64,000 nucleotides of DNA, from contig CP031585.1 in NCBI GenBank assembly GCA_003217735.2, positions 2,591,501 through 2,655,500 on the forward strand. The letters run 5' to 3'. Both the position numbers and the translations under genes were made by a program. Source of the DNA: Marinibacterium anthonyi (GTDB taxonomy: Bacteria > Pseudomonadota > Alphaproteobacteria > Rhodobacterales > Rhodobacteraceae). The notes beneath the pieces are model-generated. The model did no database searches. It was not told the origin of the DNA and was given only the letters and a program-made list of their open reading frames with translations. Positions 25,695 through 57,090 of this stretch are shown piece after piece; positions within the stretch are counted from its first letter, which is position 1; each line of letters starts with the position of its first letter.

Positions 25695-28025
25695 CTAGCG
25701 ATTGTCAGACGGATTGAAGCGCAACAGTCGCAGGGCATTGAGCGTGACCAGCACCGTGGCCCCGGTATCGGCCAGGATGGCGATCCAGAGCCCGGTCAGC
25801 CCCAGCACGGACGTCACCAGGAACACGGCTTTAAGACCCAGCGCCAGGGCCACGTTCTGACGGATGTTGGCCATGGCGGCCCGTGCAAGCCGGATCAGGG
25901 CCGGTACGTCCACCACCCTGTCGCGCAGGATCGCCGCATCGGCGGTTTCCAGTGCCACGTCGGTGCCCGAGCCCATCGCCACACCCACGTTCGCCTGCTT
26001 TAGCGCCGGTGCGTCGTTGATGCCGTCGCCAATCATCATGACGCCGCCGGTTGCGCCCATCTCGCGGATCAGCCTCAGCTTGTCCTCGGGCATCATGCTG
26101 GCGTGGAATTCCATGCCGAGCTGCCCGGCGATGGCTTCGGCCGTGCGGGGATTATCGCCGGTCAGGATCACCGGCGCGATGTCCATCGCCCGCAGCTGGG
26201 CCATGGCCTCGGCGGCGTCGTTGCGCGGCTCGTCGCGCAGGGCGACGAGGCCAAGGGGCTGGCCTGTGCGGAACACCGCGACCACCGTCTTGCCCTCGGT
26301 CTCCAGCCGCGCCGCGATCTCGGACTGGTCGTCGGCGATGCCCCCGGACTCCTCGGCGTGGCGAGGCGAGGACACCCAGGCCTTCGCGCCGCCCACCAGT
26401 GCCTCGACGCCCTTGCCGACGATGGCGCGTGCGTCGGTCGCGGGCAGGGCCTCGATCCCCGCCTCCTCCGCCCGACGCAGGATGGCCTGGGCCAGCGGGT
26501 GCGACGATCCGGTCTCGACCCCGGCCGCGACGGCCAGCAGGTCGCTTTCAGACACGCCGGGCGCGGGCACGATGTCGGTCACCTTCGGTTTGCCGTGGGT
26601 CAGTGTGCCGGTCTTGTCGAAAGCGATCGCCAAAACCTTGGCGGCGGCCTCGATGACCGCGCCGCCCTTCATCAGAAGGCCCTTCCGGGCGCCCGAGGAG
26701 AGGGTTGAGGCGATCGAAGCCGGAACCGAGATCACCAGGGCGCAGGGGCAGCCGATCAGCAGCAGCGCGAGGCCGCGATAGATCCAGGTGTTCCAGTCGG
26801 CCCCGGTAGCGAGCGGCGGGATCAAGATGACCAGCGCCGCCAGCACGACGATGGCGGGCATGTACCAGCGGCTGAACCGGTCGATGAACCGCTCAGTTGG
26901 CGCGCGGGCGTCCTCGGCCTCCTCGACCAGCCGAATGATGCGCGCAATCGTGTTGTCCGCTGCGGCTTTCGTCACCGTCACGCGAAGCGCGGCCTCGGTA
27001 TTGATCGATCCCGCGAAAACCGATTCTCCCGGCCCCCGGGTAACCGGGACGCTTTCACCGGTCACGGGACTTTCGTCGATACCGCTGGTGCCCTCGGCAA
27101 TCTCGCCATCGGCCGGGATGCGGTCCCCGGGGCGCACCAGAACGCGCTGGCCGACCTCGAGCTGGTCGGCCGGGACTTCGCGGGTCTTGCCGTCGATTTC
27201 CAGAAGTGCGGTCTTGGGCACCAGATTGGCCAGCGCCCTGATGCCGTCGCGCGCCTTGCCGGCGGCGACACCTTCAAGCACCTCGCCCACGGCAAAGAGG
27301 AACACCACAAGCGCCGCTTCCTCGGCTGCACCGATGAACAGGGCGCCGATGGCGGCGATGGTCATCAGGCTTTCGATGGTGAAGGGCTGCCCGAGGCGAA
27401 CGGCCTCGAAGGCGCGCTTCGCCACCGGGGCGACGCCGATCACGCAGGCGAGGGTAAAGGCCCAGTAACCGTAGTCCGCCGAGGTCAGAAGCTCGAAACC
27501 CCATGCAAGGACAAGCAAGGCCCCCGTGAAGATCACCAGCCGTCCCTTGTTGGTCTGATACCACGCCTTGCCGCGATCGGCGGGGTCATCATGCACATGA
27601 CCGGGGCTGCCATGCCCGGAATCGGCCTTTGCAGACGACGGCCCTTTGTCATCGCCTTTGACGTGGTCATGGTCGTGGTCGGCATGATCGTGATCGTGGC
27701 CTTCGCAGTCAGGGCCATGAGAGTGCGCCTTTTTCGGGGCGTCGAGCGTATTCTCCGGCGACGACGCGCCACGCTGCGCAATCCCGTATCCGAGGCGCTT
27801 CACGATGGCCTCGATCTCGGCAGGGTCCGTACTGGCAGGCTCCAGATCCAGCGAAAGGCGCTCACTCATCAGCGCTACCTTTACTCCGCTGACACCCGGA
27901 AGGCGCTCGACGGCCTTCGTCACTTTTAACGTGCAGGCGGCACAATCCATGCCGCTGACAGTCCAGTCTCGGCGCTCGGCTCCACTCATTTTCTTTGCTC
28001 CTGGCCCGGCAACTGGCCGGGGCAA
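25695..28025 (-). CDS. cadA: Zn/Cd/Pb-translocating P1B-type ATPase
   Basis: This 776-residue heavy-metal efflux ATPase has an N-terminal HMA domain with GMDCAAC (about 21-27), a long His/Asp-rich linker (about 96-125), SPVTGESVPV actuator loop, the CPC metal motif IGCPCALV near 425, phosphorylation site DKTGTLTHG near 470, GSSHPLAQ and GDGINDAPAL near 668. The CPC and His-rich features fit the Zn/Cd/Pb subgroup. It is read leftward from a MerR-type promoter (28042-28072) that shares its core with other promoters in the island. Confidence 0.93.
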   Translation of the reverse strand: MPRPVAGPGAKKMSGAERRDWTVSGMDCAACTLKVTKAVERLPGVSGVKVALMSERLSLDLEPASTDPAEIEAIVKRLGYGIAQRGASSPENTLDAPKKAHSHGPDCEGHDHDHADHDHDHVKGDDKGPSSAKADSGHGSPGHVHDDPADRGKAWYQTNKGRLVIFTGALLVLAWGFELLTSADYGYWAFTLACVIGVAPVAKRAFEAVRLGQPFTIESLMTIAAIGALFIGAAEEAALVVFLFAVGEVLEGVAAGKARDGIRALANLVPKTALLEIDGKTREVPADQLEVGQRVLVRPGDRIPADGEIAEGTSGIDESPVTGESVPVTRGPGESVFAGSINTEAALRVTVTKAAADNTIARIIRLVEEAEDARAPTERFIDRFSRWYMPAIVVLAALVILIPPLATGADWNTWIYRGLALLLIGCPCALVISVPASIASTLSSGARKGLLMKGGAVIEAAAKVLAIAFDKTGTLTHGKPKVTDIVPAPGVSESDLLAVAAGVETGSSHPLAQAILRRAEEAGIEALPATDARAIVGKGVEALVGGAKAWVSSPRHAEESGGIADDQSEIAARLETEGKTVVAVFRTGQPLGLVALRDEPRNDAAEAMAQLRAMDIAPVILTGDNPRTAEAIAGQLGMEFHASMMPEDKLRLIREMGATGGVMMIGDGINDAPALKQANVGVAMGSGTDVALETADAAILRDRVVDVPALIRLARAAMANIRQNVALALGLKAVFLVTSVLGLTGLWIAILADTGATVLVTLNALRLLRFNPSDNR

Positions 28026-29974: not shown

Positions 29975-30002
29975 GTAAGCGATGTTCCGGGATCACGGGA
30001 TC

Positions 30003-31571: not shown

Positions 31572-31625
31572 GCATGCAGCATAGCCCGGAGCGCGCCACT
31601 GCAGGCGTGGAAAAGACCCCGCGAG

Positions 31626-31976
31626 TCATTCCGCCACAGCAGGCCGCCTGGCTTCGAGCGCCTTCACCTTGCGCCAGTCCAGCCCGGCAAACAGCGCCTC
31701 GAACTGTGCGCGGTTCAACGACATCACCCCGTCGGTCACGGGAGGCCAGACGAAGCCGGAATCTTCCAGGCGCTTGTACGCCATCACGAGACCTGTGCCG
31801 TCCCAGAACAGGATCTTCAGCCTGTCGGCCCGTTTCGCACGGAAGACAAAGACAGCGCCCGCGAAAGGGTCCTCCTTCAAGGCCGACTGCACCAGCGCGG
31901 CCAGGCCGTCATGGCCTTTCCTGAAGTCGACGGGCTTCGTGGCTATCAAAATGCGCACCCGGTCGGACGGGATCAT
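31626..31976 (-). CDS. tnpB: IS66 accessory protein TnpB
   Basis: This 116-residue protein has the family pattern PVDFRKGHDGLAALVQ...FVFRAKRADRLKILFWDGTGLVMAYKRLE. It is required with TnpA for IS66 transposition, by an unclear mechanism. Its ATG overlaps the tnpA stop (ATGA). Confidence 0.95.
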   Translation of the reverse strand: MIPSDRVRILIATKPVDFRKGHDGLAALVQSALKEDPFAGAVFVFRAKRADRLKILFWDGTGLVMAYKRLEDSGFVWPPVTDGVMSLNRAQFEALFAGLDWRKVKALEARRPAVAE

Positions 31977-32356
31977 GCCAGCGCCCGCACCACGGAGGCG
32001 ATCCGCTCTGCCGACGCGCCGGGCTCGAGCCGCACGGTCACCGCGCCGACGGCGATCTCGACGCTGCCGCTGGCAGAAGGCCCCGTATCCGTCGGCGATT
32101 CCGCCGGGGCCACCATCAGCGACACGAACTCGACCGCGTCCTCGGGGGCTGGCAGCACCAGCCGGCCGTCCCGCGCCATCCGCCGCCAGGCCGAGACCTG
32201 GTTGGCCTGCAGCCCGTGCCGCGCGGCCACCGCGTTCACGGTCGCGCCGGGGCGCAGCGTCTCGGCGACAATCTCCGCCTTCAGCTCGTCCGGCCACTTC
32301 CGGTTCCTGCGCTGCGTCTCGCGCTCGTTCGTGAGAACCTCAAAATGTGCGCTCAT
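31973..32356 (-). CDS. tnpA: IS66 accessory protein TnpA
   Basis: This 127-residue protein has an N-terminal helix-turn-helix (RKWPDELKAEIVAETLRPGATVNAVAARHGLQANQVSAWRR), typical of IS66 TnpA. The ATG at 32356 is preferred, since GGGAGTG lies nine bases before it; a GTG at 32368 is also possible. Confidence 0.92.
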   Translation of the reverse strand: MSAHFEVLTNERETQRRNRKWPDELKAEIVAETLRPGATVNAVAARHGLQANQVSAWRRMARDGRLVLPAPEDAVEFVSLMVAPAESPTDTGPSASGSVEIAVGAVTVRLEPGASAERIASVVRALA

Positions 32357-32609
32357 TGAGAAAGTCACTCCCTGCTCGTTGCAGGAAATGAGATCTCAGA
32401 ACCGCCGTCTCACAAACAGGTGGGACCCAGGCTTCGCTTACAATGGAACCTGAAAGCCTGCTTCACGGTTCCTGCGTTTGGAGGTGTCCCGATCTCTGTT
32501 TCTTGGGTGGCCGCAGAGGGGAGATACTTGATTCCCTCGCCGTCCGGTTTTCCGGGAGTAACTAGCACCATTATTGAAGTCCTCAGGAAAGAAAACTCCA
32601 GAAACTCCC

Positions 32610-35202: not shown

Positions 35203-37305
35203 TCATCGGTAAGCCGATCTCGGTTGCATTCCTAAATAGCTTTCCAGAACAGATTGATAGACAGTAACGGCTGCCTCATCGAGGAGGCGGGCCTGAAGGC
35301 TCGCTGCGAGTTCGTCATGTCTTTTTTCGCGCAAGAGGTCTTCAATGTATGGCCGCGCTTCTTCGAGCGATACCGGCTGGGCTTCGGTGCGTTCCAGAAC
35401 CTCGACGATGTAGAGACTGTCGCCGAGTTCGAAAGGCTTGCCGATCTCGCCCGGCTCAAGTGCCATGACCGCCTGATGGAATGGGTGATCGAACATCTCT
35501 GACAGCGGGTCAGCACCCTCACCGACCCAGCCGCTCAGTTCTCCGCCCGTTCCCGCACTGTCGGAATCCTCGGAGTAGTCCCGCGCGACGGTCGCGAATT
35601 CCTCGGGTTTGCCCAGGAAGCCGGGGACCAGCTTCGCGTAGGCTTCGTCCGCCCGTTCGCGCGCGCGGGCTTTTTCGTCCGCGGTACTGCCCAAACCGAT
35701 GCGGACATAGCGGATTCTGGCTTTTGGCGGGTAGGCAATCAGGTCGCTGTTCCGGCTGTAGTAGTCCTGGATATCCGCGTCGCTCACCACGACCTGGTCG
35801 TCAACCTCTTCCTGCTCCATCATTTGTGCCATCAGCCGCAACCTGGATTCGTCGGCCTGTGGGCGCGTCTTCACATCGAGAAGCTGATCGTAGGTGTCGC
35901 TGACCAGCAGCATTCTGTCGATCAGATCGTCCGCGAGACGCTTCATACCGTCCGGGGCACTGTATTCAAGCCGCGACCCGCGGGGCAGTTCCCGAAACTC
36001 GTCGTAGAACTGCCCGAGGCTGTAACGCTCGCTCTTGATCGTGAACAGCGTCTTGTCGCCGTTCGCCGCGAACCAGGCCTCCTCCTTCCGCCGTGCGACG
36101 GCTTCGGCGACCTCCGCACGGACCTCGGAGAGCTCTCGTGTCCGGGCCGGCCTGGACTCGACGAGGCGCACGACATAAAATGCGTCTTCCGCTTGGAAGA
36201 CGCTGGCGAGTTCGCCCGGCACCAGCGCGAATACGGCCGTCTCCCATTCAGGCGCCTCGGTGCCCTCCGCGACCGCGCGGCCCGACGCCATCCTGGTTCC
36301 CTCCTTGTCGGCAGCGGCTTCGGTGAATGTCGCTCCTCCGCGAATCCGCAAGAGGGCGTCGGCGGCTTTCTGGCGCGCCGCGTCCCCGAACGAGCCAATC
36401 GGAAACGCAAGTTCATCGACGATCACGCTCCGGGTCAGTTTGAAGCTGTCCCGGTTCTCATCGTAGTATCGTCGCAGTTCGTCGTCCGTGGGCGACGGCA
36501 CTCGCAGAAGGTCGTAGTTCCTCGTGATCGAGGCGTTGGACCTGAGGCGCTCGACATAGGACGCGACGTAGTCAGGTTCGCGCCGGGCCTTCAGCGTCCG
36601 GCTGATGCCTTCCCGCGCTTCCTCGAAGGTCTGGCCGGCAAGGGCGGCTCGGTTCGCATCATAATAGGCGCGAAGGTCGCTCTCGCTGACCGTGAGTTGT
36701 TCTTCATGGATCTGGTCGGACAATGCGGCAAGCGACAACTCTTCGTCGATGTGCTTCGCGGCATGACGGAACGATTCGTCGCCTTGCGGCTTTCGCTCGG
36801 CGGCCCATCGCAGGACGATCCGATCCGAGATCAGGTCCTCGACCACGCCGACGATGGCGTTCGGCGATCGCATCAACACATCGGCGTCCTCGCTTGACAT
36901 CATCCTCATGTGCTCCGCGATGTCGTCCAGCGTGATCCTTCCCCCGTCGTATGTCGCGACCACATCCGGTGCCGGCGGATTGTCGGCCACCTGATCTCCG
37001 GATGCATAGTACCAGACCATCACGGTAACGGTGCCGATGGCCCCGACAAGTCCGCCCATCCGCCAGCGGCGTATCCCAGAGCCGCGCGATGGCCGGGTTT
37101 CGGGCGCGGGTCTGGCGCTGTCGCCGGGCGTGCCGCGGGTGGTTTCCCGATCCGCGCCGGCGTTGCCGTCAAGCGATGGCCGCGTGATTCCGGAACCGTG
37201 GGTTCCCGGTTCCTCCGAGGCGCTTTCTGCCTCCGGCTCCGAATCCGCCCGGCCGCGCAGGCTGGCGATCACGTCCTGCCAGTTTTGCTTCCAGCCCCCG
37301 GCCAT
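35203..37305 (-). CDS. Membrane-anchored PpiC/SurA-like peptidyl-prolyl isomerase
   Basis: This 700-residue protein has an acidic cytoplasmic N-terminus (about 80 residues), one membrane helix (GGLVGAIGTVTVMVWYYASG) and a large periplasmic part. That part contains SurA/PpiD-like chaperone helices and at least one parvulin domain (ARIRYVRIGLGS to FELGDSLYIVEVLERTE); a degenerate second one lies in the middle (FPIGSFGDAARQ to EDAFYVVRLVE). The ATG at 37305 directly follows the HflK stop. It is likely an envelope foldase co-expressed with HflK and HflC. Confidence 0.85.
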   Translation of the reverse strand: MAGGWKQNWQDVIASLRGRADSEPEAESASEEPGTHGSGITRPSLDGNAGADRETTRGTPGDSARPAPETRPSRGSGIRRWRMGGLVGAIGTVTVMVWYYASGDQVADNPPAPDVVATYDGGRITLDDIAEHMRMMSSEDADVLMRSPNAIVGVVEDLISDRIVLRWAAERKPQGDESFRHAAKHIDEELSLAALSDQIHEEQLTVSESDLRAYYDANRAALAGQTFEEAREGISRTLKARREPDYVASYVERLRSNASITRNYDLLRVPSPTDDELRRYYDENRDSFKLTRSVIVDELAFPIGSFGDAARQKAADALLRIRGGATFTEAAADKEGTRMASGRAVAEGTEAPEWETAVFALVPGELASVFQAEDAFYVVRLVESRPARTRELSEVRAEVAEAVARRKEEAWFAANGDKTLFTIKSERYSLGQFYDEFRELPRGSRLEYSAPDGMKRLADDLIDRMLLVSDTYDQLLDVKTRPQADESRLRLMAQMMEQEEVDDQVVVSDADIQDYYSRNSDLIAYPPKARIRYVRIGLGSTADEKARARERADEAYAKLVPGFLGKPEEFATVARDYSEDSDSAGTGGELSGWVGEGADPLSEMFDHPFHQAVMALEPGEIGKPFELGDSLYIVEVLERTEAQPVSLEEARPYIEDLLREKRHDELAASLQARLLDEAAVTVYQSVLESYLGMQPRSAYR

Positions 37306-37306
37306 G

Positions 37307-38437
37307 CTACCGAAGCCCAGTCGGCGAAAGGATCGGGCCAGAGGACTCCTCGCCGAAGAGCTTGAGGTTGAAGCGTCCTCCCCGTTCTGTATCAAGCGCA
37401 TAGACTCGGACCCGGGGAAGGATCTTCTCGATGGTATCAAGAAACATGCGATACCGGGTCACGTCTTCGCCAAAGGAGACCGAGTTGCTGCGATATTCGG
37501 CCAGAAGATACTCGAAGGCCTGGGCCGCGCCGGTGGCAGACGCCAGGACGCCGGACCTGTAGGCCTGCGCCTCGGCCGCCAGTCGCTGCGCCTCGCCACG
37601 GGCTTCGGGGATCAGGCTGTTCGCGTAACCGCGCGCTTCGTTTATCATCCTGGCCTTTTCTTCTCTGGCCGTGTTCACACCCGAAAAGGCATCGGCGACG
37701 TCCTGTGGCGGGAAGGCCTTCTGCAGGTCGATGCCCACGATCGCCAGCCCGCTGCCGTAGGCATCGAGGCGCCGCTGGGCCTCGTCGCGGATCGACTGCT
37801 GAAGCGACTGGCGGCCGCTGGTGAGAAGCGCGTCCACGGGCAGTCCGGTCACGAGTTGCGTCACCGCGCCGCGAAGCGCGTCGCGCACGGTAAGATAGGG
37901 TGCATTGCCGATGTTCAGCAGATAGTCCGCCGGATCCCGAACCTGATACTGCGCGATCACTTCGATATCCACGACATTGGTGTCGCCCGACAACGCCTGA
38001 AGTTTCGACGGGGGCTCGGGGTGGCTGTGATCTTCCTCCTTCGCGTCGATGCCGACCTGTTCGCGGCGCACCGTGCTGACGTTGACGACATCCACACGGT
38101 CGACGGGCCAGGGCAGCCGATAGTGAAGCCCCGGCTGCATACGTGGTGCGACGACGGCGCCGAAACGCCGGACCACAGCGGCTTCTCCCGGTGCCACCGA
38201 GTAGACGCCCGTGGCGAGATAGACGGCCAGACCCGATGCGAGCAGACCCCAGACCAAATAGACCGGCCGGAAGTGGCCAAGCGCAACCCGCATGTCTGCG
38301 ACGGGCGACTCGGCGCCGGTGGCAAGGCCGCGGGCTGCGTCCGCCGCGGCTTTCCGAACCCGTCGGGCGCGGCTCTTCCACCTGCCAGCCGGCCTGGGCG
38401 CTGAGTTGTCATGCGAGAGAGGGTTGTCGTCGCTCAT
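37307..38437 (-). CDS. hflK: HflK-like SPFH membrane protein
   Basis: This 376-residue protein has a Pro/basic N-terminus, one membrane helix (VYLVWGLLASGLAVYLATGVY, near 59-79) and an SPFH/band 7 domain starting VAPGEAAVVRRFGAVV, with the long helix rich in Ala/Glu/Arg (ARMINEARGYANSLIPEARGEAQRLAAEAQAYR). HflK with HflC forms a cage around the FtsH protease. No ftsH is in the window, so it would act on the host enzyme or on its own. ATGA overlap with hflC. Confidence 0.9.
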   Translation of the reverse strand: MSDDNPLSHDNSAPRPAGRWKSRARRVRKAAADAARGLATGAESPVADMRVALGHFRPVYLVWGLLASGLAVYLATGVYSVAPGEAAVVRRFGAVVAPRMQPGLHYRLPWPVDRVDVVNVSTVRREQVGIDAKEEDHSHPEPPSKLQALSGDTNVVDIEVIAQYQVRDPADYLLNIGNAPYLTVRDALRGAVTQLVTGLPVDALLTSGRQSLQQSIRDEAQRRLDAYGSGLAIVGIDLQKAFPPQDVADAFSGVNTAREEKARMINEARGYANSLIPEARGEAQRLAAEAQAYRSGVLASATGAAQAFEYLLAEYRSNSVSFGEDVTRYRMFLDTIEKILPRVRVYALDTERGGRFNLKLFGEESSGPILSPTGLR

Positions 38438-39399
38438 GGCCGGACCCCCGGCACATTGCTCCGGCCTGTATCCGCCTCGGCATCGGCAAGATTGCTCGAA
38501 CCTGTGGAGGGGGGCGGTTGCAGCACGCTGCGCGGATCGAGATAGCGCAACAGTTCAGAGTCGGACGGCAGAATGAGGGTCGTGCCGTCGTCGATGAACT
38601 TGTCGTATGATTCGAGTGTCCGGGAAAACTGGTAGAACTCCTTGTCCTTGCCGAACGCCCCTGCGTAGATGGATACCGCATCCGCGTCGGCGCGGCCGCG
38701 CGTCTCGGTGGCGTCCTGGCTTGCCGCAGCCAGGATCGCTGCCTTCTCCGTATCGGCCTCCGCCCTGATCCGGGCTGCTTCCTCGGTCCCTTCGGAGCGA
38801 AACTGCCGCGCTATAGCTTCGCGCTCGGACCGCATCCTCTGGAATACGCTCGAAAGGTTAGCGGGCGGGAAGGTCAGTTCCTTGAGCTGCACGTCAGTTA
38901 CGGTGAACCCGTAAGGCTCCGTCCGGGCCGCGGCGCGCTCGCGCACGGCCGCCAGGGTATCGGGAAGCTTGACGTTGGAGGTATCCACCGTAACGAGTTG
39001 ACCCAGCTCGACCTGCCCGAGTGCCGCACCCAGTTCGGACCGCACGATATCATTCAGCCGCAAGTCCGCGCCGCGCAAGTCGCGGACGTTCTTGACGAAG
39101 GCGAGCGCATCGGTCACGCGCCATGTCGCGTAGGCTTCCGCGACGATGTTCTTCTTGTCGCCGCTGAGAAACTCGGTTCGTGGCAGTGTGTAGACCTGCA
39201 ACTGATTGCTGATCTTGACGACGCTCTGCACCGGATCGGGCAGCTTTGCATAAAGCCCGGGTTCGTTAATGATCCTCACGGGGTTGCCGAACTGGGTAAC
39301 GATGGCATCCTCGGTGGTATCGACCTGAAAGTAGACCAGGCTGACGGCCAGGAACGCGAGCGCCAAGGCCCCGAAGCCAAGAAAGCGAAGGATTTTCAT
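38434..39399 (-). CDS. hflC: HflC-like SPFH membrane protein
   Basis: This 321-residue protein has an N-terminal signal-anchor (LRFLGFGALALAFLAVSLVYFQ) and an SPFH domain of HflC type (EDAIVTQFGNPVRIINEPGLYAKLPDPVQSV; FRSEGTEEAARIRAEADTEKAAILAAA). Expected to pair with HflK. It lies 31 bases after the CDF::HflK fusion gene, and all four genes run leftward in one operon. Confidence 0.92.
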   Translation of the reverse strand: MKILRFLGFGALALAFLAVSLVYFQVDTTEDAIVTQFGNPVRIINEPGLYAKLPDPVQSVVKISNQLQVYTLPRTEFLSGDKKNIVAEAYATWRVTDALAFVKNVRDLRGADLRLNDIVRSELGAALGQVELGQLVTVDTSNVKLPDTLAAVRERAAARTEPYGFTVTDVQLKELTFPPANLSSVFQRMRSEREAIARQFRSEGTEEAARIRAEADTEKAAILAAASQDATETRGRADADAVSIYAGAFGKDKEFYQFSRTLESYDKFIDDGTTLILPSDSELLRYLDPRSVLQPPPSTGSSNLADAEADTGRSNVPGVRP

Positions 39400-39430: not shown

Positions 39431-41026
39431 TCAGGGCTGCAAGCGCCGGCCGGATGGCTGCGGGAGCCAGAGATCGGTCGTGTCCGGCGTGGTGGCCGGA
39501 TCGACGATCAGTTTGCGAACGCCGTTCAGAGACCGCTCGACAGCTTCCAGATACAGTCGCTGACGCGTGATCTCTGGTGCCTTCGAGTAAGCGGTCTGAC
39601 GCGCAACGAAACTCGCGGCTTCCCCGGACGCCCGCGCGAGCCTCTCGGCTGCGTAGGCCTGCGCGGACTGACGCATTCGATCCGCATCGCCGCGGGCCAC
39701 GGGCAACACCTCGTTTCGGTAGGCGGTCGCCTCGTTGACGAAAGTGTTGCGATCCTCGCGTGCGCTTGCGACATCGCGGAACGCCTCGGCGACTTCGCGC
39801 GGAGGCGCGCTCTCGAGGAGCTGTACGCCCGAGACGCGCAGCCCGCTTTCGTTCCGGTCAAGCGCGGCCTGCGCGGTGGCCATCGCTTTCTGCTCGATTT
39901 CGGTCTTGTCGACAGTCAGCAGCGCGTCCACGGATTCGCCGGCGACGACGCCGCGGAAAGCGGCGATCGACGTCTCCATCACCAACTCCTCGGGATCCGC
40001 GACATTGAGAAGATAGGCGGCAGGATCCTGCACCGTGTAATGAACGCTTGCCCGCACCGAAATCAGGTTCTCGTCGCCGGTCAGCATCTGGGTTGGCGGT
40101 GTCTCGATCCGGCGCACCTGATCGGAGGCGACAACATCGACGCGCTCGACAGGCGCTGGCCAACGGTAGTGCAGGCCGGGTCCGGTCCGGGCGACGACCG
40201 CGCCGAACCGTCGGACGACCGCCGTCTCGCCTGGCTGCACGGTGTAAAAGCCGCTAACGAGAAACAGCCCCGCAATGAGAAATGCACCGGCGGGAACGAC
40301 CGCCCGAAGATTGACATGCTTCGGGGCGGTCACCCCGGTCTCGCCCTCCAGATCCAGGAGGCGCCGCTGTCGCAGAGCCGCGATGGCCGAGGCGGCGATC
40401 TGGAACCCCGACAGGAAGACCATCACGGCAACGATCGCCGCCGCCGCCAGATCGAGTTTCGACAACCCCAAAGCGGAGCCGGCCAGTCCAACGACGACAA
40501 CGATGGAGGCATAAATGTCGACCTGAGAGTGGTAGCCGCTCGCGATCAGGGCCGGCGACCCCGTCTGGCGGCCAACGTAAAGTTTATAGCGGGCGATCAC
40601 ATAGGCCACTGCGACGCTGACGAGCGAGGCCAGCGTGATCGGGCCCAGGTTCCGAAGTTCCGCGCTTGTCCCGGCCAGGACGTCGATAACGATCTCGATG
40701 CCGACATAGAAGATCGCTCCGGAAACGATCAGGGCTATGAGGTTTTCCAAGGCGCCTACGCCCTGCCGCACCGGATCAGAGCCGCGGATCCGGCGGCTGA
40801 GGTACAGCCCGGCAAGGACAAAAAGGCCGATAGCCAGGTCCGTCAGCGAATGCAGGGCGCTGGATCGCAAAGCAATGCTTCCGGATACGCCCGAAAGCCA
40901 GAACTTGAACAAGATCAGCAGAACGTTGATCATGGCCGTGATGAGTACTGTGCGTTCCTTGCGGTCCATCGTACGGAAGACCTCTCTCTCGTTTCCTTGA
41001 CCGGCTTTGATAGACGAATGGCGCAC
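39431..41026 (-). CDS. Fusion of a cation-diffusion-facilitator membrane domain to an HflK-like SPFH domain
   Basis: This 531-residue protein has two parts. Residues about 20-230 form a six-helix CDF membrane domain with both metal-site signatures: HSLTD in helix 2 (near 59-63) and HSQVD in helix 5 (near 165-169). Residues about 245-520 are HflK-like (VQPGETAVVRRFGAVV). The usual cytoplasmic CDF domain is missing, replaced by the SPFH part. It may couple divalent metal export or sensing to membrane protein quality control. The GTG at 41026 or the ATG at 40969 could be the start. Confidence 0.85.
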   Translation of the reverse strand: MRHSSIKAGQGNEREVFRTMDRKERTVLITAMINVLLILFKFWLSGVSGSIALRSSALHSLTDLAIGLFVLAGLYLSRRIRGSDPVRQGVGALENLIALIVSGAIFYVGIEIVIDVLAGTSAELRNLGPITLASLVSVAVAYVIARYKLYVGRQTGSPALIASGYHSQVDIYASIVVVVGLAGSALGLSKLDLAAAAIVAVMVFLSGFQIAASAIAALRQRRLLDLEGETGVTAPKHVNLRAVVPAGAFLIAGLFLVSGFYTVQPGETAVVRRFGAVVARTGPGLHYRWPAPVERVDVVASDQVRRIETPPTQMLTGDENLISVRASVHYTVQDPAAYLLNVADPEELVMETSIAAFRGVVAGESVDALLTVDKTEIEQKAMATAQAALDRNESGLRVSGVQLLESAPPREVAEAFRDVASAREDRNTFVNEATAYRNEVLPVARGDADRMRQSAQAYAAERLARASGEAASFVARQTAYSKAPEITRQRLYLEAVERSLNGVRKLIVDPATTPDTTDLWLPQPSGRRLQP

Positions 41027-41198: not shown

Positions 41199-41921
41199 AT
41201 GACAGAGCACCAAGCACACATTCTAGTCGTCGATGACCACCACGAGATCCGCGAACTGGTTGCCGGACTTTTGTCTCGGGCCGGATACCGTGTGAGCAGC
41301 GTCGCGGACGGCGTACAGATGCGCCGTCTTCTGAAAGTCCAACAGATTGACCTTGTCGTTCTCGACCTCATGCTTCCCGGCGATGACGGGCTGACGCTCT
41401 GCCGTGATCTTCGCGCCAAATCCGAGCTGCCCGTGATCATGCTTACCGCAAGAGGAGAGGAGTTCGACCGGGTGCTCGGGCTTGAAATGGGAGCGGACGA
41501 TTACCTGCCCAAGCCCTTTGGCGGCCGGGAACTGATCGCACGGATCCGCGCCGTTCTAAGGCGGGCAAGAGCACTTCCGGTGGGCGAAAGCAAATCTTCC
41601 GTCGCAGCGTGGCGTTTCGACCGTTGGATCTTTGATCTTGCCGCAAGGAGGCTAAGGTCCGTTTCCGATGTGGTCGTGCCCCTGAGCACGTCTGAATTCA
41701 ATCTCCTGAGAGTCCTTATCGAAAGGCCGGGAACGGTGCTGACCCGGGAACAGTTGCTCGATCTGACCCGCGGTCGAGATGCCGACTTTGTTGACCGGAG
41801 CATAGACACGAGAATTAGCCGCCTGCGCCGGAAGATTGAGCTGGACCCTCAAAATCCCGAAATCATCAAGACCGTATGGGGCGGCGGATACATCTTTTCA
41901 GCTGAGGTGGTCCGGGGATGA
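41199..41921 (+). CDS. OmpR-family response regulator
   Basis: This 240-residue protein has a receiver domain (HILVVDDHHEIREL; phosphorylated Asp in VVLDLMLPGDDG near residue 56; Lys in YLPKPFGGREL) and a C-terminal winged helix (STSEFNLLRVLIERPGTVLTREQLLDLTRGRD). The start is 173 bases from the divergent CDF::HflK gene. The stop overlaps the histidine kinase start, so they form one operon. Targets may include the neighbouring membrane-stress genes; this is inferred from position. Confidence 0.92.
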   Translation: MTEHQAHILVVDDHHEIRELVAGLLSRAGYRVSSVADGVQMRRLLKVQQIDLVVLDLMLPGDDGLTLCRDLRAKSELPVIMLTARGEEFDRVLGLEMGADDYLPKPFGGRELIARIRAVLRRARALPVGESKSSVAAWRFDRWIFDLAARRLRSVSDVVVPLSTSEFNLLRVLIERPGTVLTREQLLDLTRGRDADFVDRSIDTRISRLRRKIELDPQNPEIIKTVWGGGYIFSAEVVRG

Positions 41922-43342
41922 GGCGCCTCTTGCCGAAGAGTCTCGTCGGCCAAACAGCTGCCGTGTTAATACTCGGGCTGATCGCTACCCATTTGCTGAC
42001 AATCATAATTTTCGAGGAACATCGCAGGGTCGTCCTAAACGAGACCGAGCAACAACATATCGCACAACTCGTCGCGGCGATTTCCGACATCATTCTAAGT
42101 GTACCTGATGATGATCGCGAGTTGGTCGCGCGCGCCTCCGAAAGTCATAGCTTTCGAGTCTCCTTGGTGCCTATCACCCCTTCTTCGGTTAATGTGGTGG
42201 ACGACCCGCAGTCTGCCCGCCTTGGCGAACTGCTCAAGCGTCGGATACAAACGGCCGTGGATGAGCCAATCCAAGTGGAAATCGGCGAGGCCAAGCCACA
42301 GGATGAACTGTCAGTCAACGCAACGATCGTTGAATGGCTTCAAACGCGATTGCTGCGCATGGCTACGGGACATGATCAGGATACTGCGCTCCTTGTTTCG
42401 GTGCCGCTACCGACGGGTGAACGGATTGATTTCACAACCATGCTACCCCTAGCGGCGGCTCCCGGATGGCCAAAAGTGGTCGCAACGACGGGAATCTTTC
42501 TTTTCGCTGTCCTTCTGCTTTCTGTCTGGACAGTCAGACGGCTGCTCTTGCCGGTGCGGGTCTTTGCCGACGCGGCAACTTCATTCTCTCAAGACGTTCA
42601 GGCGCCGTCCCTGCCTCTGACCGGACCGTACGAACTTCGTGAGGCGATAGGAGCATTCAATGAGATGCAACTCCGTATCCGTTCACAATTCGAACAACGC
42701 ACACAAATGCTTGCCGCCATCTCGCATGATCTGCGAACGCCGCTTACGGTCGCTCGGCTGAGGGCCGAGACAATTGACGAATCTGATGTCCGGGAGCGGA
42801 TCGTCAGTTCGCTTGCCGAAATGGACCAGATGCTACAGACCACTCTCGCCTTCGCTCGCGAGGGAACCGAAAGCGAATCGACTAGCATGACGAACCTTGG
42901 TGCCCTTGTTGAAGCGATTTGCGATGATTTGGCAGAGTTGGAGTATGATGTGACGGCCGCGATTCCGGACGGTATTATTTTGCCTTGCAGGCCCGTAGCC
43001 TTGAAGCGTGCTCTGACGAACCTGATTGAGAACGCGATACGTTATGGCACTTGCGCAGTTGTCGATGTTCGGTCCGATGCCCAGGCAGCCGAAATTGTCA
43101 TTGCCGACAGCGGCCCCGGTATCCCGGCCAAAGACTTGGAGCGAGTATTCCTTCCGTTTCATCGACTGGATGCTTCACGCAATCGAGAGACCGGAGGCCT
43201 GGGGTTGGGACTGGCAATAGCGAAGAGAATTGTAGAGTCTCACGGTGGCCAAATACGGCTCTCCAACCGAGATGTGGGCGGGCTGGAAGTCCGCGTCAGT
43301 TTGCCGGTGCATTTCACCAAAGAGCTTCAAGACGTCAAGTAG
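41918..43342 (+). CDS. Sensor histidine kinase
   Basis: This 474-residue kinase has two membrane helices (about 9-29 and 186-206) around a periplasmic sensor of about 150 residues, a HAMP region, a dimerisation domain with the phosphorylated His in SHDLRTPLTVARLR (near 269), and an ATPase domain with NLIENAIRYG, DSGPGIP and GGLGLGLAIAKR. The sensor has no metal-rich cysteine or histidine cluster, so its signal is unclear. It pairs with the adjacent OmpR-type regulator. Confidence 0.92.
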   Translation: MRRLLPKSLVGQTAAVLILGLIATHLLTIIIFEEHRRVVLNETEQQHIAQLVAAISDIILSVPDDDRELVARASESHSFRVSLVPITPSSVNVVDDPQSARLGELLKRRIQTAVDEPIQVEIGEAKPQDELSVNATIVEWLQTRLLRMATGHDQDTALLVSVPLPTGERIDFTTMLPLAAAPGWPKVVATTGIFLFAVLLLSVWTVRRLLLPVRVFADAATSFSQDVQAPSLPLTGPYELREAIGAFNEMQLRIRSQFEQRTQMLAAISHDLRTPLTVARLRAETIDESDVRERIVSSLAEMDQMLQTTLAFAREGTESESTSMTNLGALVEAICDDLAELEYDVTAAIPDGIILPCRPVALKRALTNLIENAIRYGTCAVVDVRSDAQAAEIVIADSGPGIPAKDLERVFLPFHRLDASRNRETGGLGLGLAIAKRIVESHGGQIRLSNRDVGGLEVRVSLPVHFTKELQDVK

Positions 43343-43448: not shown

Positions 43449-44501
43449 TTAGAATGCATAGACGATCGTCACCACTGTGGCCATTACGATCGTGAACATC
43501 GCAAAAGCGCACAGAGCGAGAGTCCGACCCATGTCTCTGTTCGGCCCATTCACTTTCAAACGCAACTCTGCGGCGGTTTCTGGAAACTCCAGTGCCGCAG
43601 AATTCGAATTACGCATCAAGTCGCCGCGGGAGTTCCAACGCCGCTCTTCCGCTGCGTTCCAGCCATTCATCACGAGAATGATCGCCACAATCAAGACCAT
43701 CGAGGAGGGAATCCAAATCATGTATCCGCCGACCGTCTCGTCCACCAGGGAGCCAAGTCTGCCACTATGATATGGCGAAGATCGCAGAACATATAAGCTA
43801 ACCTCCTTGAACGTTGTCAAAGAACCCAGGAAAATGTTTGAAACGATGACCACGAAACCCGAGATTAGCCGCGCCCCGCGCCGGGCTCCTTCCGGCGGGT
43901 CGCGGTGATCGAACATCATTGAAAAATACCAAAGTCCCGCCAGAGTCATCGACAGATGAGCCAGTATCTCTAAGAGCGCAATCTTCTGCGCGAGAGCGAA
44001 TAGCTGCGGCACCTGCCAAATGAAGAGCGATCCGACAAGACAAGCGGTGGCAATACTAGGACGCGTCATGAACCTTGCAATGTGCCCGCCGCCAAGCTTT
44101 CTGAGACTTTTTCGCCATTGCCTGCTCGACCCGGCTTTCAAGATATGCCACGGCTGGGACACTGCGATGACAAGTGGTCCCACTAAGCGCAACAAAAGAT
44201 GCTCGACCTGGTGTGCCGAAAATTGGCTGTGTCCCAAAGGGGCAAGAGGCGCACTTGTCGCGACGAGGACGATGGCAAGGCCGGCAAAGAAGAGAGCACG
44301 ACGCCAGATCGTTATCTTTCCGACAAAGCGAGCGGTTGTCTTGAGGCCACGAAGATACAAAGATGTTGCAAGGCCGATGAATACGAATGAGATCGGCGAA
44401 ATCATATAGCCGAATGGATCGTAAAAGATCAGACCGTTGAACAACTGCTCACTCCTTGTCATTGGTTTGGTGCCAGATGCGTCCGACCTGAGTAGGCACA
44501 T
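43449..44501 (-). CDS. CtaG-like cytochrome c oxidase assembly protein (second copy)
   Basis: This 350-residue polytopic membrane protein is of the CtaG family but distant from the copy at 33466: SQFSAHQVEHLLLRLVGPLVIAVSQPWHIL, MFDHRDPPEGARRGARLISGF and DETVGGYMIWIPSSMVLIVAII are recognisable. It has a C-terminal extension of about 60 residues ending in another hydrophobic helix. The start may be the ATG at 44462 (MTRSEQLFNG) rather than 44501. It lies at the left end of the long minus-strand block and could be transcribed with it. Confidence 0.82.
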   Translation of the reverse strand: MCLLRSDASGTKPMTRSEQLFNGLIFYDPFGYMISPISFVFIGLATSLYLRGLKTTARFVGKITIWRRALFFAGLAIVLVATSAPLAPLGHSQFSAHQVEHLLLRLVGPLVIAVSQPWHILKAGSSRQWRKSLRKLGGGHIARFMTRPSIATACLVGSLFIWQVPQLFALAQKIALLEILAHLSMTLAGLWYFSMMFDHRDPPEGARRGARLISGFVVIVSNIFLGSLTTFKEVSLYVLRSSPYHSGRLGSLVDETVGGYMIWIPSSMVLIVAIILVMNGWNAAEERRWNSRGDLMRNSNSAALEFPETAAELRLKVNGPNRDMGRTLALCAFAMFTIVMATVVTIVYAF

Positions 44502-44808
44502 CCCGCCCTCTCAACCCTAGGCCTGCCAAATCGGCCGGAGTTCCTCGCTACCCAAACAGAAAAAGGTTGGCACCGAGTTGGAAGAACGCATCGCCTTACC
44601 GCCCCCTGAATGTGGCTCTCCGCCGCGGCAGTGTATTCAATGGTCGCGCTGTGTCTGCTGCCTTGAAGCCCCCAACAGCGGAGTTCGACGCACTTATCGG
44701 CTGCTGGGCCAAGCCAGAAACAGCCAATTCCAATATGAAAATGGCAGGGAAAGCGCGTGGCTGTAAGTTTATCTGACGTTCCAGTTCGCATCAGAAAGGG
44801 GAGGTCTC
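44502..44808. other. Non-coding gap between CtaG and the small membrane protein
   Basis: No gene, terminator or MerR-type operator core is seen in these 307 bases. The gap may separate the long minus-strand operon from the second ctaG gene. Confidence 0.35.
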
Positions 44809-44976
44809 TTATGAAGTAATACGCATTATGAACAGCGACACGATGAATGCGAGAAGGCCGAAAGCGATACCCGAGCTGACCGCATATTGCATGATATCCA
44901 GCCGGTTTCCTTTACGGCGACGCGCCAGATACCCACCCCAAATTGCTCCTGCGAGGATACCCGCGATCGTCACCAT
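44809..44976 (-). CDS. Small two-helix membrane protein, 55 residues
   Basis: This short protein has two hydrophobic segments (TIAGILAGAIWGGYLA and GIAFGLLAFIVSLFIM) separated by a basic loop (RRRKGNRLD). GGAGG lies just before the ATG at 44976, which is inside the end of the lnt gene, so it is translationally coupled to it. No known family is recognised. An assembly or transport partner role is possible. Confidence 0.65.
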   Translation of the reverse strand: MVTIAGILAGAIWGGYLARRRKGNRLDIMQYAVSSGIAFGLLAFIVSLFIMRITS

Positions 44977-46553
44977 GACTTTGCCTCCGCTGATGCCTTT
45001 TGATTTCTTGCCCGATGCATGCCTGACAACCGTGAGCCAAGAAACACGATCCAAGTGACGGCTGTTAACGCTAGGAGCATCCAGTCGCCGAACCGTGCAT
45101 ATGGCGTGGGTTCGAGGGCGCCGGGAAGTTCGGCATCGATGACACCGGTCTCTTCGATGCCAAGCTTCACAATGAGCTCGCCCTTCGCGTCGATTACCGC
45201 TGAGATGCCGGTGTTCGCGGCCCTCACAATCGGAAGTCCTTCTTCGACGGCACGCATGCGGACCGCAGCAAGGTGCTGCTCGGGTCCAATACTGGTGCCG
45301 AACCAGGCATCGTTGGTGGCGTTGAATATCCAGTCGGGCCGATGCTGATCGTCGATGACGTCGCCTGGAAAGATGATCTCGTAGCAGATGGCCACGGCCA
45401 GCGGGGGAGCGCCGGGCAGGGTCAGCGTTCGCGGTCCTGCACCGGGCGTAAAGTCTCCCAGGCCTTGGGTGATCCGGTCGAGCTTAAGCCAGTCGCGGAA
45501 GGGGACATACTCGCCGAATGGAACGAGATGGTGCTTTGCATAGCCGGTCAGAATGTCTCCGGTTTGATTGTAAGCTTGGACGGTGTTGAAATAGAGCGTT
45601 TCTTGGTCCTTTCGCGTGCGGTCCGGGACGCCGGTCAGAAGCAAAGCGCCGTCCTGCAAGATGGCGGCAATGCGAGATCGCGCCCGCAGATCCTCATCGA
45701 GAAAGCCCGGAAAGGCGGTTTCCGGCCACAGGAGCACATCCACCTCGCCGGGACCGCTCGAGAGGTCCAGATAGCGCGTTAAGGTCGCGACTCGCTGTTC
45801 GGGCGCCCACTTCTCCCTTTGCGGCACGTTGCCTTGAACTATGCGCACATCGACTCCGGGCGCAGGTCTCGGCTCTAACCCGAGTCGGCCTTGGCCTACG
45901 GTCCATGTCGTCGCGATCACGGCCGCGAACAGACTAGCGGGGACCCAGCGCCGCCGTCTCTCCGTCACCAGGGCCGCGGCCGGCAGCGTTCCGGCCAGGA
46001 CTAAAAGAAAGCCCAGCCCATAGCTGCCGATCCATGCGGCCGGCTGCCTCAGTGTCGGGTAGTCGACAAGGGCGTAGGCGGTGAGGTTCCAGGGAAATCC
46101 CGTGAAGACGTGCCCGCGCAGCCACTCTGCCGCCGTCCAGGAGGTTGCGAATAGCAGGCAGGTCGTTACGCCGGTGACCGCAAAGCGGGACGTAGTGCTG
46201 GAAAACAGCGCCGCCGCCAAGGCCGGAAAGGTGGCCAGACCGGCGGCCAGTGCCGCAACGGCCGGGATCGCCAGCGCCCCAAATTTATCGGGGTCCACAT
46301 AGAAGCTCTCGGAGATCCATGAGAGGCCAAAGCCGAATTGACCGAGACCAAAGGCCCACCCGACCAGTGCGGCTGCCCCGACGGAGCCAGCGCGCAGCAG
46401 AAGAAGCAGCACTGAAAAGGATACGGGCACGAGCAGAATGATCGAGAAGGGCGGAAGCGACAGAACGGTCATCGCTCCTGCTGCGGTCGCGACAATGGCG
46501 CGAGACGGCAAGGAAGTCACCCAGCCTCTGTAAAAAGGCAAAGGCGACCTCAT
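44970..46553 (-). CDS. lnt: Apolipoprotein N-acyltransferase Lnt
   Basis: This 527-residue inner-membrane enzyme transfers the third acyl chain to lipoproteins. About six N-terminal helices are followed by a periplasmic nitrilase domain with the Glu in LLWPETAFPGF, Lys region AKHHLVPFGEYVPF and catalytic Cys in AICYEIIFPG (near 389). The ATG at 46553 overlaps the lspA stop. Being encoded with lspA on an accessory island suggests an additional lipoprotein maturation pair, or one tuned to metal stress. Confidence 0.9.
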   Translation of the reverse strand: MRSPLPFYRGWVTSLPSRAIVATAAGAMTVLSLPPFSIILLVPVSFSVLLLLLRAGSVGAAALVGWAFGLGQFGFGLSWISESFYVDPDKFGALAIPAVAALAAGLATFPALAAALFSSTTSRFAVTGVTTCLLFATSWTAAEWLRGHVFTGFPWNLTAYALVDYPTLRQPAAWIGSYGLGFLLVLAGTLPAAALVTERRRRWVPASLFAAVIATTWTVGQGRLGLEPRPAPGVDVRIVQGNVPQREKWAPEQRVATLTRYLDLSSGPGEVDVLLWPETAFPGFLDEDLRARSRIAAILQDGALLLTGVPDRTRKDQETLYFNTVQAYNQTGDILTGYAKHHLVPFGEYVPFRDWLKLDRITQGLGDFTPGAGPRTLTLPGAPPLAVAICYEIIFPGDVIDDQHRPDWIFNATNDAWFGTSIGPEQHLAAVRMRAVEEGLPIVRAANTGISAVIDAKGELIVKLGIEETGVIDAELPGALEPTPYARFGDWMLLALTAVTWIVFLGSRLSGMHRARNQKASAEAKSW

Positions 46554-47020
46554 GGACCAGTCCGGTGTGCTTGCTGGATCTTCGGCCCAACGAGGAGCAA
46601 TCCGACGCCACATACCACAAACACATCGGCTATGTTGAAGGCGGGCCAATGGGCGGTGCTCACATAGAAATCGAGGAAATCCGTGACCCCCTGAAAACGC
46701 AGGCGATCCGTTACGTTGCCGAAAGCGCCTCCTATGATCGCGCCGTATGCGACGGCTTCGACTCTGTTGGCAGCTTGACACATCATGAACGTGAACCAGA
46801 CGCAGACGGCAATGGCCAGCGCCGCCAGGACCCACCATGGTGTGCCGCTGAGAAGGCCGAAGGTCACGCCGTCATTACGAAAGTACGTGAGATTGAACCC
46901 AGGTACGATCGGGAAGCCATTGCGCAGGGCTTCCGCATTGGCAACCACGATGGCTTTTGTGATCTGATCTACGGCGAAAGAAATGAATATGGCAAGCGTG
47001 CCGATTGCTAACGTTTTCAT
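46550..47020 (-). CDS. lspA: Lipoprotein signal peptidase LspA
   Basis: This 156-residue inner-membrane aspartyl peptidase has four helices and the motifs VDQITK, FRNDGVTFGLL, GGAFGNVTDRLRFQGVTDFLDF and AFNIADVFVV, including both catalytic Asp residues. LspA homologues are known in lead-resistance (pbr) operons, which fits the PbrR-type regulator nearby. The ATG at 47020 (MKTLAIG) is preferred; the frame is open to 47032. ATGA overlap with lnt. Confidence 0.9.
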   Translation of the reverse strand: MKTLAIGTLAIFISFAVDQITKAIVVANAEALRNGFPIVPGFNLTYFRNDGVTFGLLSGTPWWVLAALAIAVCVWFTFMMCQAANRVEAVAYGAIIGGAFGNVTDRLRFQGVTDFLDFYVSTAHWPAFNIADVFVVCGVGLLLVGPKIQQAHRTGP

Positions 47021-47036
47021 TTCGGCAGACATCGCC

Positions 47037-47819
47037 TCACCTTAGCCTAGCGTCGAGAAAAAGCATTATGACCAAGCCAATTGCCAGGCCGAGGACTGCT
47101 CTGTTTTGGCGCCCTTTTCGGTGGCTACTAGGGATGATCTCATGGCTGCTAACAAAGAGTGTTGCGCCCGCCGCGAGAGCCACGCCCCATTGAAGATAGC
47201 CTACCGAAGAATTAATCATGGCAGCACCAAAAAGGCCGCCAACCGGCTCGATGAGGCCGGTCAAAGCAGCGATTAACCAAGCGTGATGCTTAGAATACCC
47301 CTCTCCGAGGAGTGCGGCTGCCACCGCTAGCCCTTCAGCCGCGTTCTGCAATCCAATTCCAATACCGAGCGGTATACCGCCCGACATCCCATCGGCCGCA
47401 ATCCCAATTCCCAATGCAAACCCTTCGGGGAAATTATGGACTGTGATCGCGAAGATAAAGATCCAGACACGGCAAAGCGTTGCGCCATCAGATGTTTTGG
47501 AGTGCGGATTTAGCCGCTCGCTGGGTATCCTTTGGTTTATCTGGGCTACTTCACTCAAGCCAAGAAAGACGGCGAAGCAGACTATAGCGGCAGGGGCAGC
47601 GCCATATTCGAACAATCCTTTGGCTCCGTCTAGGGCCAGAAAAATCATGGATACTAGTAGGGTCGCGAGCATTACGCCTACTGAAACGCAGAGAACGGAG
47701 TCGCGCATCGATCTGGAAGGAATATGTCCGAACAGGACTGGAGCCGCCCCAAGGGCTGTCAGCATACAGGTGGCAAAGCTTCCGAGAAAGCTGAGCACTA
47801 CCGGGGGAGACGTTTCCAT
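47037..47819 (-). CDS. ZIP-family divalent metal transporter
   Basis: This 260-residue membrane protein has about eight helices, with the two ZIP metal-site signatures VHNFPEGFALGIG and GLQNAAEGLAVAAALLGEG in helices 4 and 5. ZupT-like ZIPs carry zinc and other divalent metals into the cytoplasm. Import seems odd beside efflux genes, and transport direction or a metal-balancing role is uncertain. It is 4-17 bases from its operon neighbours. Confidence 0.88.
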   Translation of the reverse strand: METSPPVVLSFLGSFATCMLTALGAAPVLFGHIPSRSMRDSVLCVSVGVMLATLLVSMIFLALDGAKGLFEYGAAPAAIVCFAVFLGLSEVAQINQRIPSERLNPHSKTSDGATLCRVWIFIFAITVHNFPEGFALGIGIAADGMSGGIPLGIGIGLQNAAEGLAVAAALLGEGYSKHHAWLIAALTGLIEPVGGLFGAAMINSSVGYLQWGVALAAGATLFVSSHEIIPSSHRKGRQNRAVLGLAIGLVIMLFLDARLR

Positions 47820-47831
47820 TTCGGAGCTTGC

Positions 47832-48287
47832 TCACCCTTCTGGGTAACTCGCATAGATCTCGGTCGATCCGTCCTGCCGGATGAGAAAGACATCGTAGGC
47901 TTCCCGGTCTTCCTCGGGGCCCATGCCCGGTGAACCGTAAGGCATGCCGGGCACCGCAAGACCGATTGCATCAGGGCGTTCATCGAGAAGACGACGGATG
48001 TCGGAGGCCGGTACATGCCCTTCGATCACATAACCGTCCACTAGGCCAGTATGGCAGGAGACCATGCGCTGCGGCACACCCATCTCGAGCTTGAAACGAA
48101 CAAGCAGCCCGCCAAACACGTCCTCGCCGGTGGGCGCAAAACCGTTCTCTTTGAGATGGTTCATCCACGACAGGCAGCAGCCGCAGCCGTTCGTCTTGCG
48201 AACCTCGATTGGTGTAACTTCCGCGATCGCCTGGGCAGCCGGAAGCAGTAAGATTGCGAGAACAAGTGTATGTTTCAGTCGTTTCAT
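47832..48287 (-). CDS. DUF411 periplasmic metal-associated protein
   Basis: This 151-residue exported protein has a signal peptide ending near AQAIA and the DUF411 pattern with the CGCC motif (VRKTNGCGCCLSWMNHL), then VPQRMVSCHTGLVDGYVIEGHVP and GLAVPGMPYGSPGM. DUF411 genes accompany copper and silver resistance loci, and the cysteines probably bind metal. It lies between the ZIP and M23 peptidase genes in the long operon. Confidence 0.9.
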   Translation of the reverse strand: MKRLKHTLVLAILLLPAAQAIAEVTPIEVRKTNGCGCCLSWMNHLKENGFAPTGEDVFGGLLVRFKLEMGVPQRMVSCHTGLVDGYVIEGHVPASDIRRLLDERPDAIGLAVPGMPYGSPGMGPEEDREAYDVFLIRQDGSTEIYASYPEG

Positions 48288-48290
48288 GGA

Positions 48291-49664: not shown

Positions 49665-49673
49665 GGTGGCCCC

Positions 49674-50755: not shown

Positions 50756-50781
50756 AAGCGCTTTCCGATCGTCATATGTAT

Positions 50782-57045: not shown

Positions 57046-57090
57046 GTCGCCTCCTGGGGATGTCATCCAGTACCAAAAAGCTATACAAGC

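Follow-up and report, generated by a model that had tools for sequence, protein, structure and literature searches.

The DNA analysed here, hereafter called the window, is a stretch of 64,000 nucleotides from Marinibacterium anthonyi. Coordinates refer to the whole window and residue numbers to a predicted protein of 512 amino acids, CDF::HflK, in which a cation diffusion facilitator (CDF) domain is fused to HflK. The fusion, its parts and the genes around it are:

39431..40969, minus strand: CDF::HflK fusion gene, 512 amino acids from the ATG at 40969
40355..40969, minus strand: six-helix CDF domain, residues 1-205, with no cytoplasmic domain after it and the site-B residues absent
40838..40852, minus strand: helix-2 metal site H40-S-L-T-D44, aligned to YiiP, H40 and D44 invariant
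40517..40531, minus strand: helix-5 metal site H147-S-Q-V-D151, H147 and D151 invariant
40304..40354, minus strand: variable linker, residues 206-222, under relaxed selection and of low model confidence
39434..40303, minus strand: HflK part, residues 223-512, comprising a membrane helix of its own (223-241), an SPFH domain and a long helix (391-463)
38434..39399, minus strand: HflC-type SPFH protein of 321 amino acids (TIGR01932, 169.5 bits, cut-off 134.4), in conserved order
37307..38437, minus strand: second HflK (HflK2) of 376 amino acids (TIGR01933, 209.7 bits, cut-off 159.4), in a clade of its own
35203..37440, minus strand: PpiC-type peptidyl-prolyl isomerase with Rotamase matches, its TTG start overlapping HflK2
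41199..41921, plus strand: OmpR-like response regulator, divergent from the fusion in the window
41918..43342, plus strand: EnvZ-like histidine kinase, adjoining the response regulator
25695..28025, minus strand: heavy-metal P-type ATPase of the Zn/Cd/Pb type, on the same island, ~7 kb beyond PpiC

The minus-strand frame is open throughout from 39431 to 41026, and a GTG at 41026 would give an alternative protein of 531 amino acids. The ATG at 40969 is the better start codon, because it is preceded by the stretch GAGAGAGG and because its methionine opens the peptide MDRKERTV, which is invariant across 12 aligned alphaproteobacterial rows. The true start of PpiC is probably further in than the TTG, relatives aligning from residue ~46.

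Pfam families were matched by the fusion in the order Cation_efflux (96.1 bits, cut-off 26.6), then Band_7, and the NCBIfam models TIGR01297 (CDF, 97.5 bits, cut-off 82.35) and TIGR01933 (HflK equivalog, 223.6 bits, cut-off 159.4) were both passed. The cytoplasmic C-terminal domain of CDF proteins is absent, as had been predicted, and HflK begins after a linker of 17 residues. Hydropathy analysis identified seven hydrophobic segments, six belonging to the CDF domain and one to HflK (223-241), so that six further segments precede the HflK helix, compared with the single N-terminal helix of HflK. CDF proteins have both ends in the cytoplasm. The distribution of lysine and arginine in the fusion fits this topology, with 15 such residues in the N-terminus, loops 2-3 and 4-5 and the linker and two in loops 3-4 and 5-6 (the count omits loop 1-2). 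HflK is described as lying on the periplasmic side of the membrane (PMC12048511). On the basis of the seven segments and of the CDF and HflK topologies, the SPFH domain of the fusion should be on the periplasmic side, and the CDF cytoplasmic domain would therefore be missing, rather than replaced in place. The original prediction had set an HflK-like domain in place of the CDF cytoplasmic domain; the absence of the latter stands, but the replacement does not, since HflK retains its own helix and its SPFH domain is periplasmic by topology. CDF proteins are described as 'usually composed of two domains' (PMC7864060), the cytoplasmic domain being usual but not universal.

A monomer structure predicted from an alignment of 26 rows, only 11 of which covered the CDF part, recovered both folds, a six-helix CDF of the YiiP fold and HflK, in a moderate model (pTM 0.38). 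The best 50 of 1,049 Foldseek matches that were listed were HflK and other SPFH chains, with no CDF chain, and CDF chains head the VIA list of structure matches.

Residues H40, D44, H147 and D151 align with the helix-2 and helix-5 ligand positions of YiiP (site A), and none of the 13 full-length copies, the window's among them, has lost any of the four, although one copy is just 39 % identical. In the same alignment, the fusion has no histidines in its counterpart of the histidine-bearing loop of YiiP (site B). The H/D/H/D pattern of the fusion, which favours zinc in the CDF family, is also that of the ZitB-like standalone CDFs compared, a set extracted by match coordinates. Scans of viral contigs for further CDFs returned nothing, or two distant CDFs which were misplaced by MAFFT and left out. 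The profile matches and the four ligands uphold the reading of the frame as a CDF domain with both HxxxD sites, followed by HflK; a loss of the metal residues across homologues, raised as a reason for doubt, was seen in none of the full-length copies. The description of the model CDF YiiP as a Zn/H+ antiporter (PMC10617992) makes the 'metal channel' suggested at the same time unlikely; the suggested arrangement in an SPFH ring is plausible.

Selection was estimated between the copies at loci L035 and L042, with dN/dS of 0.049/0.959 for the whole fusion, 0.028/1.015 for the CDF part, 0.058/0.944 for the HflK part and a higher 0.135/0.756 for the linker; in pairs involving the window, dS was near or at saturation. 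The CDF and HflK halves are both under strong purifying selection.

A search for other CDF::SPFH fusions found one on a plasmid, 11 at loci in further genomes and one on an IMG/VR contig. The conjugative plasmid of Aquibium oceanicum carries the same fusion (65.5 % identity over the whole query), annotated as plain HflK with the transporter half hidden. Ten of the 11 genome loci have the fusion at full length and one, from a Hyphomicrobiales MAG, is broken by a contig end; the fusion-bearing organisms are Carideicomes, Allosediminivita, Aminobacter, Tianweitania, two Rhizobiaceae, Chelativorans, Ahrensia, Oricola and Nitratireductor. Two rows are 99 % identical to the window and the other nine 65-68 %, the nine being close to one another (L040 and L041 are alike). 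Many rows being close, about two lineages are represented among them. A third lineage is the 39 % identical fusion of IMG/VR contig 2751185592_000002, which scored over the cut-offs of Cation_efflux (65.3 bits) and TIGR01933 (188.8 bits) and under the 82.35 cut-off of TIGR01297 (69.3 bits). The original prediction allowed that a sequencing error might have joined two genes at about 40290. The same in-frame fusion is present in independently sequenced records 65-99 % identical and in the one 39 % identical, and a joining of two genes by sequencing or assembly error has thus become negligible as an explanation; the CDF::HflK fusion is confirmed as genuine.

Sampled searches, in which few candidates were scored per genome and absence is therefore not proof, found the fusion in 3/394 genomes at the level of the family (three genera, namely the window's own, L033 and L034), in 1/398 at that of the phylum (the window's own), in 1/385 at that of the class, where three other matches were HflK only, and in 1/347 in the order of L035 (L035 itself). 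Two same-genus genomes searched were without the fusion. Two HflK-only matches from the class, L030 and L032, were considered as split fusions and rejected, being hflK-hflC loci without an adjoining CDF. The pattern scans, including the one that gave the 11 genome loci, reach near-exact peptides only; two further scans gave no copy, or just the IMG/VR contig already found. No description of a CDF-HflK fusion was found in the literature searched, which excluded most subscription journals, and the main text of a survey of SPFH evolution (PMC2636767) makes no mention of cation, fused or transporter; this counts as weak evidence of a fusion not yet described in print.

The fusion is part of a module with the fixed order two-component system / CDF::HflK - HflC - HflK2 - PpiC. 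Neither this operon and its mobility nor the Zn/Cd-type ATPase near it figured in the original prediction. The OmpR/EnvZ-like pair adjoins the fusion in 12/12 loci examined besides the window, and HflC, HflK2 and PpiC follow it in ten of the 12, the other two being cut; in L029, PpiC is split over two frames. A heavy-metal P-type ATPase gene comes directly after PpiC in all eight Rhizobiales-type loci with room for it, and SCO and CtaG genes occupy that position in the window, L033 and L034. The distant contig has the same gene order, followed by an ArsR/SmtB-type repressor gene and a P-type ATPase gene. We know of no metal-responsive behaviour of the module's two-component system. The three ATPases tested (window, L029 and the IMG/VR contig, L116) pass the Cd-type model TIGR01512 (539, 522 and 502 bits, respectively, cut-off 313.5), with two of them passing the Cu-type TIGR01511 as well. 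An identity as CopA was rejected for the recurring ATPase, since PRK11033 (Zn/Cd/Hg/Pb), whose own cut-off was reached by none of the three, outscored CopA in each (window 868/329, L029 841/377, L116 482/311). ZIP or Nramp importer genes are nearby in the window and in L029. The region 43449-51040 of the window contains a second CtaG-like gene, genes for a ZIP transporter, a DUF411 protein, an M23 peptidase, SCO and PCuAC, and, judged by eye, a putative spare pair of LspA and Lnt genes (lipoprotein processing).

The module is mobile: it lies on a metal island common to different genera at 97-99 % DNA identity, and it is also present on the conjugative plasmid and the IMG/VR contig. Two stretches of the window match L033, one of 18.5 kb (98.7 % DNA identity) and one of 3.0 kb (97.3 %), and two match L034 (11.1 kb, 97.8 %; 3.0 kb, 97.4 %). 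An IS66-family element at 29975-32440 of the window (transposase 30006-31571, minus strand; 8-bp target duplication) is missing from L033 and L034, which are otherwise 97-99 % identical. The region 53214-57066 contains a tyrosine integrase gene beside two large genes, one with only a weak AAA match, and these are possibly the mobility genes of the island. The IMG/VR contig (L116 1-20834, IMGVR_UViG_2751185592_000002), classed as viral in IMG/VR, contains the complete module and a transglutaminase-like gene; its module may be prophage cargo, and five flanking genes were tested, none of which matched a phage family in Pfam or came near any phage record. The gene table of a Nitratireductor rhodophyticola plasmid (L044 8045-13173) has a response regulator followed by a shortened PpiC and the ATPase, the kinase, CDF::HflK, HflC and HflK2 being gone, as if deleted. 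The SPFH trio can therefore be lost while regulator, PpiC and ATPase are kept.

Of nine fusion genomes searched for HflK, eight carried three such genes, two in the module and a third outside it, and one HflK was found in the ninth, where the cluster is broken by a contig end. A phylogenetic tree resolved as separate groups the fused HflKs (11 rows, SH-aLRT 99), the HflK2s (11 rows, 98) and other HflKs (25 rows, 95); it took in 25 of 38 comparison loci, 13 plus L040 and L116 being left out, and the tree program warned of long branches, including that of HflK2 with the HflC outgroup. The module has no ftsH, and the single FtsH gene over the cut-off in the genome lies away from it. Two accessory plasmid hflK-hflC pairs (L048 5914-9283 and L049 5956-9140) stand directly before cation/proton antiporter genes (Vibrio NhaA; Methylophaga), and the additional HflK of the window genome (L004) groups with them in the tree.

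CDF::HflK has the six-helix domain, the helix-2/5 H/D ligands and the YiiP fold in common with the CDF family (YiiP/FieF, ZnT, MamB-like), but is without the cytoplasmic domain and the site-B residues and is joined to HflK. With the HflK of HflK/HflC-FtsH it shares the HflK helix, the SPFH domain, the long helix and an hflC gene after it, but it has six extra N-terminal helices and forms a clade apart from the 25 other HflKs. The module, unlike the HflK locus, adds a second hflK and ppiC, and is an extra copy beside a third HflK in 8/8 complete-cluster genomes examined. The dome of stomatin around AQP1 or UT-B (PMC12407830) is a precedent for an SPFH dome enclosing membrane transporters; that dome is non-covalent and eukaryotic, whereas in CDF::HflK the transporter would be part of the subunit.

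Four annotated plasmid loci (Burkholderia, Paraburkholderia, Klebsiella and Rhizobium) encode a 'protease modulator HflK' of 568-672 amino acids whose N-terminal part has five or six additional hydrophobic segments; two SPFH genes and a P-type ATPase gene follow:

L128, 6158-12170: plasmid-type HflK - SPFH - SPFH - P-ATPase operon
L129, 6080-12132: operon of the same type
L130, 5809-11535: operon of the same type
L131, 5236-11264: operon of the same type

The plasmid type and the module share an N-terminally extended first SPFH protein, three SPFH genes in a row and a heavy-metal ATPase (~7 kb off in the window); the Paraburkholderia plasmid ATPase, the one tested, is a heavy-metal ATPase of the Cd-family type. 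The HflK model gave the plasmid-type HflKs 66-71 bits, below its cut-off of 159, and the four annotated stretches contain no PpiC and no two-component genes. The two plasmid-type N-terminal domains tested had no Pfam match (best E 0.62), and comparison with CDFs by hhalign (two-row query) gave 0.2 % probability over 17 columns, which is not significant. An HxxxD near the fifth helix is present in the Burkholderia and Paraburkholderia copies and absent in the Klebsiella and three Rhizobium copies. With this inconsistent motif and the non-significant match, homology of the domain to CDF is not supported, and the plasmid type is apparently a second membrane-domain::HflK design, unrelated to CDF::HflK. 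The Pseudomonas aeruginosa genes PA2437-PA2439 and hmtA (PA2435) resemble the plasmid type by gene content. The SPFH trio PaFlo5-7 of strain PA14, which we assume to be the PA2437-2439 locus, is reported not to be needed for growth, its absence reducing biofilm slightly and attenuating virulence in Galleria (PMC13086221). Together, the plasmid type and the PA2437-2439/hmtA locus suggest that SPFH trios linked to metals may form a wider class.

The reading we prefer, although it falls a little short of being probable, is that CDF::HflK serves as the subunit which brings a transporter into an accessory, metal-linked dome of the HflK/HflC type. The CDF half, with its transport site kept, would move a divalent metal from the cytoplasm to the periplasm, the substrate being Zn, Cd or Pb or, less likely, Co or Fe. 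Copper as the exported metal was considered in view of the copper-type neighbours and not adopted as the main reading, as CDFs carry divalent metals and Zn/Cd types are the nearest to the recurring ATPase. The CDF cytoplasmic domain normally helps to pair two CDF halves; in the fusion, the periplasmic HflK half would hold several CDF halves together while co-assembling with HflC and HflK2, and this oligomerisation could stand in for the lost domain. The exported metal would emerge beneath the dome or next to it, in a patch of membrane shared with the PpiC chaperone and with any FtsH recruited by the dome, and the Zn/Cd-type ATPase of the cluster would pump in parallel. In proposing this, we infer transport, its substrate and direction, dome assembly and stoichiometry, FtsH recruitment and metal induction of the module. 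The native form of E. coli HflK/C is described as an open nautilus, and shells also form without FtsH (PMC12048511), so that a metal dome need not contain FtsH. No arginine was found in the chain as aligned at the number of the published HflK Arg191-FtsH contact (PMC12048511).

The domains and folds, the conserved transport-site residues, the selection on both halves, the HflC and HflK2 genes after the fusion, also in the distant contig, the Cd-type model scores of the three ATPases, the ArsR/SmtB-type repressor gene beside the distant copy, the stomatin precedent and the FtsH-free HflK/C shells speak for such a dome. Against it count the TIGR01297 score of the distant copy, the passing of the Cu-type model by two of the three ATPases, the copper-type genes near the fusion in the window (SCO, PCuAC, DUF411 and CtaG), the Nitratireductor plasmid with the ATPase but without the trio, and the PA2437-2439/hmtA look-alike, which rises in zinc shortage and so suggests supply rather than export. 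Such a supply role, in which the module would serve scarcity, for instance by loading the periplasm or FtsH with zinc as the Zur-bound Pseudomonas locus might, would agree with the ZIP or Nramp importer genes near the module in the window and L029. CDFs normally export, however, and the genes around the module serve export or resistance (Zn/Cd-type ATPase, ArsR/SmtB repressor, copper chaperones). Loss of znuA raised PA2437-2439 and hmtA by 5.6- to 14.4-fold (PMC4542158), their proteins were higher in zinc-depleted cells, significantly for two (PMC11761036), and Zur bound the PA2439 promoter in vitro (PMC8531726), but hmtA mRNA was unresponsive to added zinc in one study (PMC8531726) and the Pseudomonas likeness is one of gene content. 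We consider zinc supply to be quite unlikely.

The CDF half might instead act as a sensor rather than a pump, its metal binding reshaping the dome and so adjusting substrate access to FtsH, and with it membrane quality control, to metal stress while moving little metal on balance. Control of FtsH by HflK/C is established (PMC12048511), the folding factor PpiC is encoded in the operon, and site B and the cytoplasmic domain, which are used in normal CDF transport, are missing. The helix-2 and helix-5 transport-site residues are kept, however, the whole six-helix fold is selected more strongly than a simple binding site needs, and FtsH is encoded by one strong gene elsewhere in the genome and by none in the module, all of which makes a sensor unlikely. 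An inert CDF half, acting as a membrane anchor or spacer and altering only the footprint of an HflK-like subunit, is improbable: the linker is variable, and some relatives have standalone CDF-like proteins without metal ligands (HAHT pattern), so that non-transporting CDFs do exist, but the four ligands are kept even in the 39 % identical copy and the CDF part is constrained at least as much as HflK.

SPFH complexes are described as widespread, with the client unknown for most bacterial ones (PMC12005517). In CDF::HflK, annotated as plain HflK on the plasmid, a likely client is joined to the SPFH subunit, and residue-by-residue knockout makes the role of an accessory HflK/HflC dome directly testable. 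The fusion suggests that, in some bacteria, a metal pump may be enclosed by a dome of protein. On the preferred reading, the pairing domain of a CDF would have been swapped for an oligomeriser on the opposite face of the membrane, which would be a natural test of the purpose of that domain. A more general proposal, which we put forward tentatively and on the doubtful side, is that bacteria assemble domes for metal transport: SPFH cages whose subunit has a transporter covalently built in, with export into a walled periplasmic compartment that also contains chaperone and FtsH. The CDF::HflK and the membrane-domain::HflK - SPFH - SPFH - P-ATPase modules would then have arrived independently at one principle, and plasmids, islands and perhaps prophages would have spread them.
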